From an uncultured Rhodocyclaceae bacterium (GTDB taxonomy: Bacteria > Pseudomonadota > Gammaproteobacteria > Burkholderiales > Rhodocyclaceae), in assembly GCA_907163075.1 (NCBI GenBank), contig CAJQTY010000001.1, forward strand, positions 806,001 through 870,000: DNA of 64,000 bases. The letters run 5' to 3'. This document shows, in pieces, positions 1 through 6,599 of the stretch. The translations under genes were made by a program, and so were the position numbers. The notes below the pieces were generated by a model that was given only the letters and a program-made list of their open reading frames with translations, made no database searches and was not told where the DNA came from. Within the stretch, counting starts at the first letter, position 1, and each line of letters opens with the position of its first letter.

Positions 1-743
1 TTACACGACCAAAGCTGGCGTTTGTCATCGCCGAACAGCACGAAATCATCGACGTAGCGCAGGTAGGCCGGGCAGCCGAGTTCGCGCTGAACGAACCAGT
101 CGAAGTCGTTGAGATACACGTTCGACCAGAACTGCGAAGTGAGGTTGCCGATGGGCAATCCGCGCGGGCGGCACAGCGCCAGCAGGTCGTCACCGGGGAA
201 ATACACCGGGGAGTACTGGTCCGCCAGCACGCCAGCGCCGCTGTCGAGAATGGCGTCGATCAGCCACAGCACCTCGTCCTCCTCAATCACGCGCGCCAGC
301 TTGGCGCGCAGCAGCGCGTGATCCAGCGACGGAAAATGCTGGACGACATCGGCACGCAGGGCATAGCGATAACGCCGCCCCCAGGTTTGCAGCCGGTCGA
401 GCGCCCGGTGCGTGCCCTTGCCGGTGCGGTTGGCATAGCTGTGAGTGATGAAGTGCAACTCGAAAAGCGGCTCGATGACGTTGCACAGCGCATGGTGGAT
501 AACGCGGTCCTGAAACGGGGCGGCGCTGATCTTGCGCCGCTTTGGCTCATGAATAAAGAAGTTGCAGTAGGCACCCGGGCGGTAGCTTCGCTCCCGCAAC
601 TGCGCCTGCAAGGCGATCAACCGGTCGGCAAGCTGGTGTTCGAAGCTCGCCGCGCTGGCCCGCCGTCGCTTGCCACGCGCAGCCAGCCGATAGGCCAGCG
701 AAAGATTGTCCCAGGCGCAGATCGCGTCGAACATCGCCCCCAT
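1..743 (-). CDS. DGR-type reverse transcriptase (3' end outside window)
   Basis: Makes mutagenised cDNA from the template-repeat RNA of the adjacent retroelement. 247 residues are visible and the frame runs off the left edge, so the C-terminus is missing. Domain 5 carries the catalytic YVDD (bases 45-56), inside [13 protein letters not shown]. Domain 4 carries PIGNLTSQ (bases 132-155), the IGxxxSQ form that marks DGR reverse transcriptases, where other RTs have QGxxxSP. The N-terminus has [20 protein letters not shown], typical of group II-like RTs. The start ATG at 743 is preceded by GGAGG with 5-nt spacing; a second ATG at 734 is less likely. It lies on the same strand as the target gene and TR, and is divergent from avd, with 35 bp between the two start codons. 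The family call is very secure. Whether the enzyme is intact cannot be seen. Confidence 0.95.
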
Positions 744-778
744 CCGATCCTCCCACCCCCCGAGTCGGCCGTCCCGTC

Positions 779-1174
779 ATGCCCAATGCCAAAGAACTGG
801 TGATCTTCACCCAGACCTACGATCTTCTGACCTGGTTGCTGCCGCAGTGTGAGCACTTTCCAAAGAGCCAGCGCTTCGTCGTCACCCAGCGTCTGCAGGG
901 CGCCGCGCTAGATTTTCAAGAAGCGATTTTCGATGCCAACGCACGTAGCGGCTTGCTGCGGCTGCAGCATCTGCAGGCCGCCGACGCACACCTGAACAAG
1001 CTGCGATTGTATCTGCGCCTGGCGCGCCAGTGGGAGTGGCTGAGCAGCGGCCAGTACGAGCACGTCAGCCGCCTGGTCGCGGGCATCGGCAGACTCCTGG
1101 GCGGCTGGATCAGGCAGACCAGCGTCGCCGCCGGTGGAGTCCGTGGGCGTAGGGGCGAACCCGAAGCAGGATGA
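779..1174 (+). CDS. avd: Avd, DGR accessory variability determinant (four-helix bundle)
   Basis: A 131-residue basic protein of the Avd / four-helix-bundle family, which forms a pentamer, binds the RT and TR RNA and is needed for mutagenic retrohoming. Recognisable features are the N-terminal helix (KELVIFTQTYDLLTWLLPQ), FPKSQRF at about residues 28-34, the basic helix around LRLYLRLARQWEWL, and the C-terminal QYEHVSRLVAGIGRLLGGW. The last ~20 residues after WIRQT are low complexity and may be a run-on. No Shine-Dalgarno is visible before the ATG. It lies between TR and RT but on the opposite strand to both, which is unusual for DGRs, where avd normally reads with them. Its mRNA would be antisense to any TR-RT spacer transcript. 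Confidence 0.9.
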   Translation: MPNAKELVIFTQTYDLLTWLLPQCEHFPKSQRFVVTQRLQGAALDFQEAIFDANARSGLLRLQHLQAADAHLNKLRLYLRLARQWEWLSSGQYEHVSRLVAGIGRLLGGWIRQTSVAAGGVRGRRGEPEAG

Positions 1175-1435
1175 GAAAGCTGATGGGGCGGGGCACGGCG
1201 GGCACTTTGGCCTGGTCGTGCCCCGGCTTGCCTATGCGCCCGGCGCTGGCGATGCCCCAATGTCGCCTTGCCTTGCGGCGTGCGCGCGGACCAGACCTGT
1301 CTGGCGCTGTTCTTCTTCCTTCGCCTCGGCGAACCAATCCGCAGATCGGCCCGCATTGCCGGAACGCGACCGGCCGGGTAAGCCGGCGCGCCGCCCCGCC
1401 TTGCGGCGGAACCAGAAGAAGGGGCGGAAGAACGT

Positions 1436-1556
1436 GGGAGAACGCAACACCACGCGAAAACCGATGTTATTGTTACGGTTGCCGGGGTGATTCCTGTTGC
1501 GAATCGCACAGCGCGCGTTGTCTCGATTGTTGTTCCACGAGCCGCCGCGCACGAGC
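1436..1556 (-). repeat. DGR template repeat (TR)
   Basis: A 121-bp block, sense strand minus, matching the VR at 1716-1836 without gaps. The sense strand has 26 adenines, many in AAC/AAT codons, so the virtual translation is asparagine-rich ([17 protein letters not shown] and onward). Of the 26 adenines, 18 are replaced in the VR; none of the 95 non-adenine positions differs. Both ends are adenine-free in the sense strand (1436-1464 and 1535-1556), giving unmutable flanks for homing. Its RNA is expected to be non-coding and to serve as template for the RT. Confidence 0.96.
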
Positions 1557-1597
1557 TTTCCAGACCGCCTGACCGGGCGTTGCCACCCGGCGACAAA

Positions 1598-1603
1598 ATT
1601 ATA
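1598..1603 (-). promoter_or_regulatory. Possible -10 element for the TR RNA
   Basis: A perfect TATAAT lies on the minus strand about 42 bp upstream of the TR 5' end. No convincing -35 hexamer sits 16-18 bp further upstream, where the sequence is GC-only. It may drive the TR RNA separately from the target gene. Weak evidence: a single hexamer. Confidence 0.3.
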
Positions 1604-1624
1604 GCCGAGGAAGCGGCAGCGCCG

Positions 1625-1644
1625 GCGGGGGAAGTCTCCCCCGC
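1625..1644. other. 8-bp perfect hairpin/cruciform between VR and TR
   Basis: GCGGGGGA (1625-1632) and TCCCCCGC (1637-1644) pair perfectly around the 4-nt loop AGTC. In the target-gene direction it lies 72 bp past the VR. Other DGRs carry a hairpin of about this stem and loop size just downstream of the VR that stimulates retrohoming. The loop here is not the GRNA type, and there is no T-run to make it a clear terminator. A smaller 5-bp hairpin (CTCCG/CGGAG, loop GAGG) lies at 1650-1663. Confidence 0.5.
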
Positions 1645-1703
1645 ACCCCCTCCGGAGGCGGAGTGATCCGAGCTTCGGAGGACGGAGTTTTCAGAGTCCG
1701 GAG

Positions 1704-4484
1704 TCACAAAACAGGGGGAGAACGCAACACCACGCGAAAACCGAGGCTATTGACACGGCTGCCGGGGGGATCCCTGCCGCGAAACGCACAGCGCGCGAAG
1801 CCTCGAAAGCCGCTCCACGAGCCGCCGCGCACGAGCAGATCTGTATCGTCGGCTGTCAGGTCTGCCTGCACTTCATTGCGAGCGTCGTAGGGGTAATCCG
1901 CCCAGCGGCTACGGGTCCATTCCCAGACGTTGCCCGCCATGTCCAGGCAGCCATAAGGGCTGGCGCCGTTCAGGAAAATGCCGACTGGCGTCGTGCCCCC
2001 GAATCCCGATTCTTCAACGTTGCAGCGCGCCGCGTTGAAGGTTTCACCCCATGGGTAACTGCGCGCATCGTCCGCGCCGCGCGCGGCTTTCTCCCACTCG
2101 GCTTCGCTGGGCAGTGTGATCGGCCTGCCCGTGATCCCGCTCAGCCAGCGGCAATAGGCCAGCGCGTCATGCCAGCGCACGTTGACCACTGGATGGATTT
2201 CCCTGCCACGCGGTGCGCGTTTGCCATTCCAGTCGCCCGGCGGATCATATTCGTTCGCCTGCACGAAAATCTGATACTGAGCGTTGGTGATCGGTACCCG
2301 CGAAATCGCATAGTGGGGCAGAAACACGCGATGGGCTTCGTCCCCTTCGCCCATTACAAACTCGCCTTGCGGGATCGCCACCCAATCGGGTTCGCCATGC
2401 GGAAGGGTCCAGAACTGACTGCCACCGATTTTCCCCAGTGCCTCTGCTGCTGCAATGCGCCGTTTGATCGCGGTCGCCGGGCTGACGCCGCGCGTGAGTA
2501 GCGTATGCACGGCGCCAACAAACCCTTTCGCGGACGGTGTATCCAGTTCGCGCTGCAATCGCCCGCGCACCATGGCTTCAAGGTTGCCGACAACGCGATT
2601 GGCGCCTGCGTCGCGCAGGCATTCGGACGCCAGCACCAGGTTGTGATAAGGCTGCGGTTCGTTCTTGGCGTCGGCGATGGCGCCGATCAAGTTTGTTGCC
2701 TTCTCCTTGCTCTGCGTGCTGAGGTAACCCGCTTCGAGAAGAATGACCTCGCGCCACCATTCATCGGCGGTATGGCGCAGACTGAAGTCCACATAATCGT
2801 CGCGTCCGGCGACTGCCAGGGCGGCCAGATACTCCTGAAAGGTCAGATGAGAGAACGCATAAGTACCCTCTGCGCGCGCAATGAGCAAGCCCGAGCGCTC
2901 GCGAATAACACCGAGAAAACGCTCGACGCTGGCATCAAGGTCGCGCGGGTCGGTCACCGCATCGCCGAGTTGCTCGGCAAGCAATCTGCGCAAGGGCTCG
3001 GCGTCGATCTCCTTGATTGCCCGTTCGTGCATCGTCAGCGCCACATGCTGCAGAAGCAGACGGCGGTCGCTGATGTCGAAAGTCCGATCGCAGATAATCA
3101 CTGAATCCTGTACGCCGCGCGCCTCGTCCCATTTGCCGAGCAGTACATCAACGGCCTCCTGGTACAACTCGGCGCGGCGATCGGGCAACTTGACGCGATC
3201 GCGGTGAATCAGTGCGATGACGGTGAGCATCAAAGGATTGATCGCCAACTCCCGAACGCGCTCGTTCTGCTCGATGGAGGCCAGCAGTTGCCGCGTTTGA
3301 TTTGCCGCAGCCGCCTCGGCGTCGTCGCCGGGCCCCATCTGCCCGATTGCCACCAGCCGGTGCCACTGCGAGAGGAAGACGCCGACATCGGCGAGCGTGA
3401 AATCGCGCACGATCGTCGTCGCGTAACCTTCGCTCAGACATGAGGCCTCGGTGTAGCCGACGATGCGGCTTGTAACCACGTAGCGGCAGTCCGGGTAAGC
3501 GCGGGTAAAGGCGTCCACCAGACGGGAAACACGCCGTCGAAGCGCCGGATCGGCTACCTCGTCGAGCCCGTCGAGCAGGACGACGGCACGTCCGCTCTTC
3601 AGCCATTCGTCGAAGAAATCGGCGGGCACTTCGATACGCTCCTGCTTCAAGGTCCGCACCAGGAACTGCAACAGGATCGCATGACCCTCGGTACCGTCGT
3701 CCTTGGCGTGATGCTCAGCCAGATAGCGCCCGATCTGCCGCAGTGCAAGGAAAACCGGCAGCACTCCGTCCTCGGCCAGACGGAGCGTTTCTGGCACCTG
3801 ATGCTGGCCCTCGGCGAAGTCGCGTCCATAGAGCAGTGCCAGATAGCGTAGCAGCGTGGTCTTGCCGCTGCCTGGATCGCCGAGCACAACCAGGCGCTTG
3901 TGATCGTACAAAGCCTCGTTGACGCTGACCTGGGTGGTATCGTTTGCAGGCGCTTCTTCGTTGCCACGCTGGCGCTCGCCCGGGGCCAGCGCTGTCTCGT
4001 TTGCCAGCCAGTCAACCTTGGCCCGCTGTGCGCGCTGGCTGGATGTCCGCAAGGTCACGTATATCCGGTCAAGCTCTATATTGACCAGTTTGCCGCCTGA
4101 CCGGATGCCTTGGAGTTGCAGGTAGCGGTTCTGGCTGATCAGGTGTTGCAGATAGCGCCCAAGCGTGCTGTGGCGATCTACCGCAGTCATCGGGACCGGC
4201 ACTTCGCCGATGACGATGGTGGCACCGGTTTCAGCGTAGATGATCTGCCCCCCCTGCTCGGCAGAGAGTTGGTGACCCGTGTTGACATCGCCGTGGCTGA
4301 CGCCGCCAAGAGCCACACCCTTCTCGCCAACGGCCATGCTGCCCGGCCCCTGGGCAACGGCACCACTGCCGTCGAGCCGGGCGCTCATCCCCACGACGGC
4401 GGCGTCGTACGTATCGCGGTCGATCACGCCCGCGCTGAACGCCCGCTTGAGTTGGTCGATGCGCGAGACCTGTTCTTCATTCAC
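1704..4484 (-). CDS. DGR target protein: NACHT ATPase with hypervariable C-terminal FGE-sulfatase domain
   Basis: A 926-residue NLR-like protein. Residues 1-100 are of unknown type and rich in glycine and Val/Ile (GVALGGVSHGDVNTG). The NACHT NTPase has Walker A GDPGSGKTT at 202-210 and Walker B VVLLDGLDEV at 301-310. A helical region follows, then a formylglycine-generating-enzyme/C-type-lectin-like domain from about residue 715 (GEFVMGEGDE, PVVNVRWHDA, LPSEAEWEKAARG, DMAGNVWEW, LVRGGSW). The last ~40 residues are the VR. The GTG start at 4484 has an excellent GGAGG six bases upstream. The known theme is NACHT/STAND ATPases carrying DGR-diversified ligand-binding tips in bacterial conflict systems. 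The inference here is that ligand binding by the variable tip triggers NACHT oligomerisation and activates an effector, perhaps through the upstream partner gene. No recognisable effector domain is fused. The FGE fold is probably used for binding and not catalysis. Confidence 0.93.
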   Translation of the reverse strand: MNEEQVSRIDQLKRAFSAGVIDRDTYDAAVVGMSARLDGSGAVAQGPGSMAVGEKGVALGGVSHGDVNTGHQLSAEQGGQIIYAETGATIVIGEVPVPMTAVDRHSTLGRYLQHLISQNRYLQLQGIRSGGKLVNIELDRIYVTLRTSSQRAQRAKVDWLANETALAPGERQRGNEEAPANDTTQVSVNEALYDHKRLVVLGDPGSGKTTLLRYLALLYGRDFAEGQHQVPETLRLAEDGVLPVFLALRQIGRYLAEHHAKDDGTEGHAILLQFLVRTLKQERIEVPADFFDEWLKSGRAVVLLDGLDEVADPALRRRVSRLVDAFTRAYPDCRYVVTSRIVGYTEASCLSEGYATTIVRDFTLADVGVFLSQWHRLVAIGQMGPGDDAEAAAANQTRQLLASIEQNERVRELAINPLMLTVIALIHRDRVKLPDRRAELYQEAVDVLLGKWDEARGVQDSVIICDRTFDISDRRLLLQHVALTMHERAIKEIDAEPLRRLLAEQLGDAVTDPRDLDASVERFLGVIRERSGLLIARAEGTYAFSHLTFQEYLAALAVAGRDDYVDFSLRHTADEWWREVILLEAGYLSTQSKEKATNLIGAIADAKNEPQPYHNLVLASECLRDAGANRVVGNLEAMVRGRLQRELDTPSAKGFVGAVHTLLTRGVSPATAIKRRIAAAEALGKIGGSQFWTLPHGEPDWVAIPQGEFVMGEGDEAHRVFLPHYAISRVPITNAQYQIFVQANEYDPPGDWNGKRAPRGREIHPVVNVRWHDALAYCRWLSGITGRPITLPSEAEWEKAARGADDARSYPWGETFNAARCNVEESGFGGTTPVGIFLNGASPYGCLDMAGNVWEWTRSRWADYPYDARNEVQADLTADDTDLLVRGGSWSGFRGFARCAFRGRDPPGSRVNSLGFRVVLRSPPVL
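1716..1836 (-). repeat. DGR variable repeat (VR) inside the target gene
   Basis: 121 bp, aligned gap-free to TR at an offset of 280 bp. There are 18 differences, all opposite TR sense adenines, and they change 13 codons of the FGE domain (for example Asn to Ser, Gly, Phe, Val or Asp; Asp to Gly; His to Pro; Ile to Phe or Leu). Several codons have both adenines changed (AAC to GGC, TTC or GTC). The VR ends three codons before the target stop codon, so diversification is confined to the extreme C-terminus. The shared 3' 29 bp without adenines likely includes the initiation-of-homing segment. Confidence 0.96.
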
Positions 4485-4498
4485 TGGATTCCTCCGGT

Positions 4499-5032
4499 CT
4501 AGCGGCGCACGCGCAGGGAAGCCGCCGCCGCGCGGAAGTAGCCGGCGGCTTCGTCGAGTTCGCAGAACTTGGCGTCCCGCTCGGCGGACGGCAACTGCAT
4601 GAACTGGTGGCCGAAGGCTTCGACCTGGCGGGACTCCATCAGCTTGGCCGACAATGCTGCCGCCTGGCCCTGACCGATCACGTCACCGATCACCGCCGGA
4701 ATCATCCTTGCATGCCCTTCCATTTCGCCACGCTTGTGGTGCGAGATATCACCCTGACGTAATGCCTCAGCTGCCTCACTTAAAGTCAGGACAATGCGCG
4801 GGTAATAGTCTGCGATGTCCGTCTTGCGTTGGGCATCCAGCGGTTTCGCCAGCAGCGATGCCGCGAGGATAGTTCGCGCGATCTCGACGTTCTTTGCGAT
4901 GTCGTCACCATGGATGTTGACTATCAACCCGGTGTTGATCGCGCTGTAGTTATCGCCACCGACGGTGACCGCTTGATCAGCCACGACGAAGACTTCAGAA
5001 GATGGCGGCAAATCTGCGATCTGGTCAGGCAT
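4499..5032 (-). CDS. Unknown small protein, upstream partner of the DGR target
   Basis: About 177 residues; I do not recognise a family. The start chosen is the ATG at 5032, with GGAG nine bases upstream; earlier in-frame starts exist (TTG 5077, ATG 5056, ATG 5047). The stop lies 14 bp before the GTG of the NACHT-FGE gene, so the two are probably co-transcribed. Residues 21-42 (AVTVGGDNYSAINTG and following) resemble the GG-x-NTG stretch in the N-terminus of the target protein. The rest is predicted helical, with Ala- and Glu-rich segments and no signal peptide or membrane segment. It could be an effector, an effector adaptor or an inhibitor of the NACHT protein. Function is unknown; only the coding call is firm. 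Confidence 0.75.
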   Translation of the reverse strand: MPDQIADLPPSSEVFVVADQAVTVGGDNYSAINTGLIVNIHGDDIAKNVEIARTILAASLLAKPLDAQRKTDIADYYPRIVLTLSEAAEALRQGDISHHKRGEMEGHARMIPAVIGDVIGQGQAAALSAKLMESRQVEAFGHQFMQLPSAERDAKFCELDEAAGYFRAAAASLRVRR

Positions 5033-5116
5033 GTTTTCGTACTCCATGCTGTACATCTTCACGTCATTCTGTACCAAAGGCGCTGGTTAGTCGTCGAGAA
5101 ATAATAACTTGAACAA

Positions 5117-5281
5117 TTACGTCTGGACATGCTGATTTCGAGGCATCAACCGGAAGTTCCATTCGCCATGGAACGCGTCGCGCTCGATGGCGAGCTTGGC
5201 CAGTTCATCGTCGGTGATCTTGATTCCCTTCGCGTAGATATTCTCGTCAATGCCCGCCTTGATGCGAAGCCCAGCGGGAAG
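5117..5281 (-). pseudogene. ISAzo13-family transposase C-terminal remnant
   Basis: The last ~54 codons of a reading frame read LRIKAGIDENIYAKGIKITD, then ELAKL and FHGEWNFRLMPR. This matches the characteristic C-terminus of ISAzo13-type transposases (KGIKVSDEE, FHGEWNY). Nothing upstream continues the transposase, so only the tail survives. It lies directly upstream of the DGR target operon and indicates past mobile-element activity at the island edge. Confidence 0.7.
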
Positions 5282-5348
5282 AGTCAGTTGCCGATCGGGA
5301 TTCATCGCCGGAAAGCGGCACCCAATAGGAAACGCGCGAGGTGCACGA

Positions 5349-6599
5349 TCACTCCAAACGGTTTGTTGCACGTAGCCACTCTAACACCCCCATCCCCGCA
5401 TATAAACCGGTACCCAAACAAGCAGTGAGCAGATATCCACCAGTCGTTGCCTCCCAGTCCAGCATCTCCCCAGCCACAAATAATCCGGGCAACTCCTTGA
5501 TCATCAGATTTTCGTCAAGGCTGCCAAAGCACACACCACCTGCGGTGCTGATGGCTTCCTCGATAGGACGAATTGCATGCACAGTGACGGGCAAGCTCTT
5601 GATTGCTTCCGTCAGCGTGGCAGCATCCGCAAATTGATCCTTACTCAGAACCTCGTGAAGTAGCGCCATTTTGACGCCTGTTATGCCGATCCGGCTTTTC
5701 AAGTGACTAGATATCGAACGCGACCCGCGAGGATGACAGACTTCCGTCAACAATCGCTCGGCTTCATACCCGGGCGCCAAATCAAGAGTGAAGGTCGCTT
5801 TGCCATGGGCATTTATGCACTCGCGCAACTGACGCGAGAACGCATAGATCAGACCCCCTTCGACACCATGCGTCCCAATGATCATTTCGCCTTGCCTTCG
5901 CTCAGCAACACCCTGAACATCGGTGAACGTTAGGGCGACCGACTTGACGGGCGCGCCGGCAAACCTGCTTCGCAGATGCTCGCTCCACGTAACGTCGAAA
6001 CCACAATTCGCACTTTGCAATGGCGCAATGTTTACACCTCTCGCATGCAACCATGGCACCCAAGCCCCGTCAGAACCCAGTTGTGGCCAACTGGCCCCAC
6101 CCAGCGCCAGAATCGTTGCCTGTGGCTTTATCGAAATTTCACCGTCCGTATTGGCTAGTCGCAATCCACCCTCACTGCCCCACCCCAGCCAGCGATGACG
6201 TACGTGCAGGCGCACACCTGAACTGCGTAGCCGATGCAGCCACGCCCGAAGCAGTGGGGCTGCTTTCATTCCTGCAGGGAACACACGGCCGGAGCTGCCG
6301 ATAAAGGTATCGATGCCCAACCCATTTGCCCACGAGCGCACGCTACTCGGCGGCAGTCTGTCAAGCATTGGCCGTAGCTGCGCTTGACGATCACCGTAGC
6401 GCGAACAGAATGTGTCGTAAGGTTCGCTATGTGTGATATTCAGACCACCAATTCCAGCGAGAAGAAACTTGCGACCCACTGATGGCATGGCGTCGTAAAT
6501 ATCGACCTGAACACCCGCAAGGCTCAGCGCCTCGGCAGCCATCAGGCCGGCCGGGCCACCTCCGATTACGGCAACTTGTGGTGCAACGGGATCGGGCAT
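5349..6599 (-). CDS. BaiN/HI0933-type NAD(P)/FAD-dependent oxidoreductase (TIGR03862-like)
   Basis: A 416-residue flavoprotein. The N-terminal FAD-binding GGGPAGLMAAEAL lies at about 13-25, followed by GRKFLLAGIGGLNITHS, the family signature after the Rossmann motif. The C-terminal GLFVAGEMLDWEATTGGYLL binds FAD. Length is normal for the family. The substrate is unknown; relatives are annotated as aminoacetone-oxidase-like or BaiN reductases. The start ATG at 6599 gives the expected N-terminus. A fragment of a second, different copy lies on the opposite strand at 6954-7061, so this gene may have come with the island or may have moved. Confidence 0.9.
   Translation of the reverse strand: MPDPVAPQVAVIGGGPAGLMAAEALSLAGVQVDIYDAMPSVGRKFLLAGIGGLNITHSEPYDTFCSRYGDRQAQLRPMLDRLPPSSVRSWANGLGIDTFIGSSGRVFPAGMKAAPLLRAWLHRLRSSGVRLHVRHRWLGWGSEGGLRLANTDGEISIKPQATILALGGASWPQLGSDGAWVPWLHARGVNIAPLQSANCGFDVTWSEHLRSRFAGAPVKSVALTFTDVQGVAERRQGEMIIGTHGVEGGLIYAFSRQLRECINAHGKATFTLDLAPGYEAERLLTEVCHPRGSRSISSHLKSRIGITGVKMALLHEVLSKDQFADAATLTEAIKSLPVTVHAIRPIEEAISTAGGVCFGSLDENLMIKELPGLFVAGEMLDWEATTGGYLLTACLGTGLYAGMGVLEWLRATNRLE

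Follow-up and report, generated by a model that had tools for sequence, protein, structure and literature searches.

A two-target diversity-generating retroelement with an inverted Avd gene and a covarying template RNA spacer in an uncultured Rhodocyclaceae bacterium

The window analysed here, 64,000 nucleotides from an uncultured Rhodocyclaceae bacterium (GenBank assembly GCA_907163075.1, contig CAJQTY010000001.1, positions 806,001 to 870,000 of the forward strand), contains at its left edge part of a diversity-generating retroelement (DGR). We read this element, with a probability of roughly 0.88, as a DGR in which a stand-alone structured template RNA serves to diversify two putative NACHT-FGE sensor proteins. 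From left to right, the locus consists of target 2 (plus strand), the reverse transcriptase (RT; minus), Avd (plus), the template repeat (TR; minus), and the first variable repeat (VR1) within target 1 (minus). Features beyond the window are given in the coordinates of L002, the wider locus around it, where the window position equals the L002 position minus 16000. A preliminary description had interpreted the element as a DGR, and the RT, Avd, adenine-only TR/VR differences, FGE or C-type-lectin-like target, and hairpin after the VR all support that interpretation. It was incomplete in that the second, opposed target, the inversion of Avd, and the structured template RNA went unmentioned; the second target was missed because only the window was visible and its repeat, VR2, lies beyond it.

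The TR (1436-1556, minus strand) and VR1 (1716-1836, minus strand) align without gaps over 121 positions. All 18 mismatches fall on the 26 adenines of the TR (A>G 10, A>T 6, A>C 2), and none of the other 95 positions is changed (hypergeometric P = 1.2e-15). Our re-alignment thus agrees with the preliminary description, including its exact coordinates. A search of the genome with the TR returned three strong places, the TR, VR1, and VR2 (E 2e-33 or better), and 18 weak ones (E 0.3 or worse). VR2 (L002:15436-15556, plus strand) lies 564 to 444 bases to the left of the window and also differs from the TR at 18 positions, all of them adenines, giving 36 of 36 differences at adenines for both VRs together and P ~1e-15 for each. 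Altogether 25 of the 26 TR adenines are altered in at least one VR and 11 in both, and the TR, VR1, and VR2 are the same at all 95 non-adenine positions. By codon position, 13 of the 26 adenines occupy position 1 and 12 occupy position 2; changes at A cannot turn any TR codon into a stop, and the 15 variable codons allow about 10^14.6 proteins. For other loci, TR/VR pairs were called with a finder that accepts only pairs with 75% or more of their mismatches at A. Because this requirement biases the adenine shares it returns, they are not used as evidence.

The two targets are paralogous, and the similarity between their genes extends beyond the repeats, with 85, 74, and 67% nucleotide identity over the 100, 300, and 600 nt upstream of the VR and 82% over the 90 nt downstream. 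Similar flanks would also be seen if the repeats were simply duplicated ends of genes, set apart by mutation or gene conversion and with no adenine-directed copying. However, the confinement of every difference to TR adenines, next to an adjoining RT and Avd, already refutes this explanation and leaves it with practically no probability. Furthermore, the flanks have diverged while the 95 non-adenine positions stayed identical, as expected if both VRs were copied from the TR.

The RT and Avd genes are divergent and separated by a 35 bp gap, with Avd antisense to the template RNA strand. The RT (window 1-743, minus strand) is cut by the window edge, and the preliminary description had considered that it might be broken to the left; the gene is complete there, with an intact, stop-free frame of 353 aa (L002:15682-16743). 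Its sequence includes IGNLTSQ and YVDD, which we take to be the motifs that mark DGR RTs. The best match among solved structures is PDB 8ub7, named 'Reverse transcriptase' (E 6.1e-53) and presumably the BPP-1 RT, and a PADLOC search matched 41 families, the best being a generic RT. Avd (779-1174, plus strand) reaches 92.6 bits with DivGenRetAVD, the NCBIfam model for Avd of DGRs (cut-off 80; E 1.7e-26), and matches Pfam bAvd at 2.8e-21. Both proteins that had been placed beside the TR are therefore present, and judged from its parts the earlier wording of a functional-looking system is fair.

The DGR may be active at present, or it may have been active once and now be frozen, its parts intact and retrohoming ceased. 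We regard the second possibility as unlikely. In its favor, a relative, G045, contains degraded copies of this DGR type (L036 and L037). Against it, the RT, Avd, TR, and both targets are intact and the TR and both VRs are identical at non-adenine positions, which implies that, measured against the divergence of the targets, the last copying was recent.

Both targets are NACHT-FGE proteins with the VR at the C terminus. Target 1 (1704-4484, minus strand; Pfam NACHT 4.2e-8, FGE-sulfatase 2.3e-51) has 926 aa, and target 2 (L002:12767-15568, plus strand, outside the window) has 933 aa. The two share 30.6% amino acid identity overall. From both Pfam and the modelled fold, the ligand domain containing VR1 belongs to the FGE-sulfatase family and is C-type-lectin-like; the model (mean pLDDT 84.1) finds matches in formylglycine-generating enzymes (FGEs) and in a DGR protein of Treponema, variable protein 1 (2y3c, E 1.2e-13). 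Target 1 gave no match in a PADLOC search. Upstream of target 2 is a 345-aa gene with a TIR_2 match under the cut-off and a PADLOC match to PDC-S60. This TIR-like gene is a separate neighbor of target 2 in the window's genome (L002:11719-15568), whereas in G045 a similar region is fused to NACHT-FGE in a protein of 1090 aa (L035:4476-7748). In a scan of 17 further targets, which include a G045 protein discussed below, FGE was found in all 17 and NACHT or nSTAND1 in 16 (E <= 0.001), with L103 having FGE only. The N-terminal parts among these targets include caspase, TIR, protein kinase with DUF4062, and EAD8.

The target type is not new. According to the main text of Dore et al. (2024, PMC10907252), DGRs of clade 5D commonly have two targets with a single CLec of the FGE subtype and a NACHT or nSTAND1 core, some have TIR or peptidase effectors, and Accumulibacter is among the hosts with several DGRs. 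The DGR described here likewise has two targets with a STAND NTPase and a single CLec. By analogy with clade 5D as presented in that text (PMC10907252), where this target type is already known, the NACHT-FGE proteins are putative antigen sensors.

The position of Avd is distinctive. The comparison covers 93 loci, of which 13 come from this genome and its relatives and 80 are named loci, the best 80 of at least 535 relatives; the proportions should therefore not be read as estimates for a population. An Avd gene was detected in 89 of the 93, inverted and upstream of the RT in 49 and on the RT strand in 40. In a tree of 91 RTs (quick setting; L036 and L037, both short fragments, were excluded), the 47 inverted rows all group in one branch whose only other member is L098, for which no Avd was found (SH-aLRT 99). 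Inverted Avd is a trait of one RT branch, whose hosts comprise, among others, Accumulibacter, Chloroflexota, Acidobacteriota, Poribacteria, Chromatiaceae, and Methylococcaceae. A TR/VR call exists for 39 of the 49 inverted loci. In 37 of these the TR is upstream of the RT on the same strand, in 31 a VR is located no more than 600 nt upstream of the TR, in 23 an opposite-strand VR lies just after the RT, and in 17 both VR placements occur. A call also exists for 34 of the 44 remaining loci, where the same four counts are 14, 8, 0, and 0. These numbers count both L056 and L057, which have identical RTs, and some VRs are hidden by short contigs. A scan of IMG/VR retained 80 of 102 relatives, with a best identity of 44%, and Avd was found in 61 of the 80, always on the RT strand.

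The words 'Avd', 'opposite', 'orientation', and 'hairpin' are absent from the main text of Dore et al. (2024), whose figures or supplement may show avd orientation. The parts of the 2012 DiGReF study covered here (PMC3521204) describe groups with the RT and the TR/VR on different strands, opposite-strand VRs in Pseudogulbenkiania, and several structure types inside Accumulibacter, and mention neither Avd orientation nor an RNA fold. In the inverted group as described there, the RT is opposite to the TR and VR, whereas in our locus the RT is encoded on the strand of the TR and it is Avd that is inverted. PMC10612066 was considered as a report of inverted avd and rejected, because the inverted genes in the accessible part of that paper are head genes.

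The region 3' of the TR, which we refer to as the spacer (Sp; 1228-1433, minus strand), is conserved and shows strong covariation. For 12 near relatives, RNAalifold gave 72 pairs, with 98.6% of cells paired compared to 39-48% when the structure was slid along the alignment; 17 pairs have double changes compared to 5.1 in shuffled alignments, and none of 500 shuffles was as good. Among 33 members of the window's clade, two helices persist, with 94.6% paired compared to 33-45% when slid, double changes in 13 of 18 pairs, and a covariation of 0.478 compared to 0.195, again with 0 of 500 shuffles as good. These structures were derived from the very alignments on which they were tested, which favors them. 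Sp has no counterpart in Rfam: with E values of up to 1 allowed, a search of window positions 1-5000 returned three matches, each of them under the gathering score and none on Sp, and searches of eight relatives gave no gathering-level match.

A covariance model, R1, built from 29 clade members, detects the element elsewhere. It scores Sp in the window at 102.6 bits (core 1228-1363), a copy that is itself in the training set. It also matches 14 clade loci outside the training set, several of them near-copies of training loci (L056/L057, L061, L069, and L076), and in all nine of those with a called TR, Sp lies 0-130 nt 3' of the TR. Beyond the clade, R1 matches 28 DGRs, the weakest near E 1, and the same placement holds for 21 of the 22 with a called TR, the exception being L092, where Sp is 183 nt from the TR. 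In these non-clade DGRs Avd and the RT are located elsewhere, yet Sp still follows the TR. The tally uses 71 of 76 matches, after dropping the window duplicate of L002 and secondary matches (two in L058, one in L070, and one in L094); 22 of the 93 loci gave no match. In 399 genomes of the order, R1 gave seven matches at E <= 0.01, of which three were judged convincing, including the one in its own genome, and the IMG/VR relatives gave two weak matches. Comparison of these sequences thus points to a conserved fold of the template RNA itself, with strong covariation in the 3' domain. In L068, a member of the inverted-Avd branch, the TR and Sp are inverted relative to the RT, and in L085 they come after it; judging from these two loci, the TR and Sp seem to move as one block. 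In the degraded L036 and L037, the RT and Avd exist as fragments only and the Sp RNA is retained; their TR/VR pairs are still called, with 14 of 14, 16 of 18, and 16 of 21 mismatches at adenines, subject to the 75% demanded by the finder.

The sequence immediately 5' of the TR pairs with a segment of Sp, enclosing the TR in a loop. In the window, the leader strand of this helix is GGTCAGGCGGTCTGG (1560-1574, minus strand) and the Sp strand is CCAGACAGGTCTGGTC (1289-1304, minus strand), and the helix averages about 13-14 pairs across loci. For 29 clade loci, the 33 less four near-copies, matched partners pair at -20.2 kcal/mol and mismatched partners at -14.8 kcal/mol, with 0 of 20,000 permutations as good, and the 22 more distant loci likewise gave no permutation as good. 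This narrow test, with segments defined by the alignment, was designed after the results of a looser wide-window run had been seen; the wide-window runs are noisy, with 9 of 2000 permutations as good for the 29 clade loci and 37 of 20,000 for 34 non-clade loci. For 20 non-clade loci the values are -24.8 compared to -18.7 kcal/mol, 0 of 20,000 permutations is as good, and the helix is found in 19. These 20 are the 21 of 34 loci that were aligned with the model (L038-L046, L092, L115, L125, and L131 were omitted) less L122, which has no letters there; they were not used to discover the helix, and the columns were picked after the wide-window run, making the test not fully blind. Over both tests as run, the helix is present in 47 of 49 loci. 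The distance from its end to the called start of the TR is at most 8 nt in 27 of the 29 clade loci (9 nt in L103 and 15 nt in L083) and in all 20 non-clade loci.

Covariation beside the TR could in principle reflect a DNA element, such as a cruciform or terminator, or a coding constraint instead of an RNA fold, and the region is indeed GC-rich and near the 3' end of Avd. We consider this very unlikely. G-U pairs make up 16-20% of the helix pairs on the TR-sense strand, which points to an RNA of TR sense, as the opposite strand would have A-C mismatches in their place. In addition, four control Sp windows showed no pairing signal with the leader, and in non-clade DGRs the element follows the TR despite the different location of Avd and the RT.

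A hairpin with an 8-bp stem and a 4-nt loop, GCGGGGGA-GACT-TCCCCCGC, is found about 70 nt downstream of each VR (for VR1 at 1625-1644, minus strand, 71 nt past the repeat). The 3' flanks of VR1 and VR2 are alike for about 80 nt beyond the stop codon, hairpin included, and by eye the sequence 3' of the TR is unlike them. A 30-base pattern from the VR 3' flank, allowing up to three mismatches, occurs at two sites in the genome, exactly one per VR (reversed control, 0), and at five sites in G045, three at the VRs of its main locus and two in a degraded locus. We scanned the next 130 nt after repeats, using VRs from calls of at least 80 nt with at least six mismatches and enough flank. In the inverted-Avd group, 43 of 62 VRs are followed by a hairpin scoring at least 14, as are 6 of 39 TRs and 13 of 310 random windows; in the other loci the corresponding counts are 22 of 43 VRs, 5 of 33 TRs, and 8 of 215 random windows. 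Phage DGR hairpins, as given in the accessible part of Guo (2011), have a 7-10 bp stem, a GRNA loop, and a distance of 4-34 bp, and the hairpins here differ from them in loop letters and distance. None of the titles and abstract openings surveyed names an inverted avd or a TR-closing helix; full texts, figures, and supplements may differ. We did not find described in the accessible texts, and so regard as apparently new, the inverted Avd, the covarying Sp that lacks an Rfam match, the TR-closing helix, and the hairpin after most VRs and few TRs. The TR-closing helix may be partly known already from work on the BPP-1 RNA.

The BPP-1 system offers a guide to how the parts could work together. 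In the available text of PMC12875486, the BPP-1 spacer folds and recruits bRT-Avd, cDNA is primed from an adenine within the spacer, reverse transcription is stopped by a motif located at the 3' end of avd, and a stem-loop after the VR helps but is not strictly required. Our locus resembles BPP-1 in its RT, Avd, TR, VR at the target end, folded spacer, and post-VR stem-loop as described there. Unlike our locus, BPP-1 has everything on one strand, avd as the 5' flank of the TR, and one target listed with a VR. In the proposed mechanism, the minus strand would be transcribed into the template RNA, probably under a promoter of its own, for which the TATAAT at 1598-1603 (minus strand) is the presumed -10 box. 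Such a -10-like box, together with a 5' hairpin (1573-1591, minus strand; unscored, overlapping the leader strand by two bases), is seen by eye upstream of the leader in most near relatives, and no -35 was found. The RNA would thus comprise the 5' hairpin, leader, TR, and folded 3' Sp. The divergently encoded RT and Avd would bind Sp, and by analogy with BPP-1, cDNA would be primed inside Sp and the TR copied with errors at A. Copying would then halt at the leader-Sp helix beside the 5' end of the TR; this helix is a natural candidate for the reverse-transcription stop in the window's clade, because avd, the site of the stop motif in BPP-1, no longer flanks the TR. The mutated cDNA would replace VR1 on the minus strand or VR2 on the plus strand, with the same hairpin following each VR and none after the TR, and the two NACHT-FGE proteins, as putative sensors, would be diversified at the end that faces the ligand.

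Several observations weigh against this reading. Single-sequence minimum-free-energy folding of Sp was not better than for shuffled sequences (z -0.78), which is why covariation was used. R1 found no match in nine loci with more distant RTs (L038-L046) or in five further loci where a TR was called, including the clade member L100, and no convincing match in BPP-1. A leader-Sp pairing of similar geometry is possible in BPP-1, between the 3' end of avd and the spacer and 6 nt from the TR, but it is no better than with shuffled leaders (131 of 300). The helix is missing from the non-clade locus L105, and from L083 in the test as run, where the TR was called too late; shifting the leader window by 30-35 nt post hoc restores a helix of about -20 kcal/mol and raises the count above to 48. 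A promoter scan did not report the TATAAT site. The initiation of mutagenic homology sequence in the VR (IMH) and its counterpart in the TR (IMH*) usually differ. Here the TR, VR1, and VR2 are identical over the last 29 bp and no IMH/IMH* difference is seen. Finally, one of the three VRs in G045 has 15 of 32 differences at non-adenine positions, in a 135-nt stretch that includes flanks; its protein is among the 17 further targets.

To a fuller proposition we give even odds: that the ancestral cassette was split in this lineage by a flip of Avd, that the template turned into a stand-alone structured RNA equipped with a promoter, a 5' hairpin, and the TR-closing helix, that this helix is general in Avd-type DGRs, sets the 5' limit of copying, and stops the RT, and that the opposed targets diversify unequally. 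If the helix is the copying limit, a sequence put in the loop would become a template for mutagenesis. Unequal diversification, giving a fast and a slow sensor, would be expected because retrohoming by BPP-1 reconstituted in laboratory E. coli depends on target orientation relative to replication, as stated in the available text of PMC12875486. The analysis provides a covariation-based model of a DGR template RNA beyond the phage system BPP-1 and names a specific helix that could set what is copied and where copying ends. R1 serves as a search model that locates the template RNA beside TRs across differing gene orders, and in bacteria of several phyla one mutagenesis unit would serve two opposed immune-sensor genes.

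The surroundings of the locus have further features. Two HI0933-like flavoprotein genes, 60.6% identical, flank the whole DGR block and face each other (L002:9855-11054 and window 5349-6599), with the left copy lacking the conserved C terminus. A C-terminal fragment of an ISAzo13-type transposase (5117-5371) lies between target 1 and the right flavoprotein gene. Immediately upstream of target 1, a 192-aa gene (4499-5077) has no Pfam, PADLOC, or NCBIfam match at E 0.001. Two equal-scoring distant RTs, with 468-aa open frames and 32% identity to the window RT, are found at G000:C1:1899651-1900376 and 2227908-2228633; as a guess, they are perhaps copies of a group II intron.

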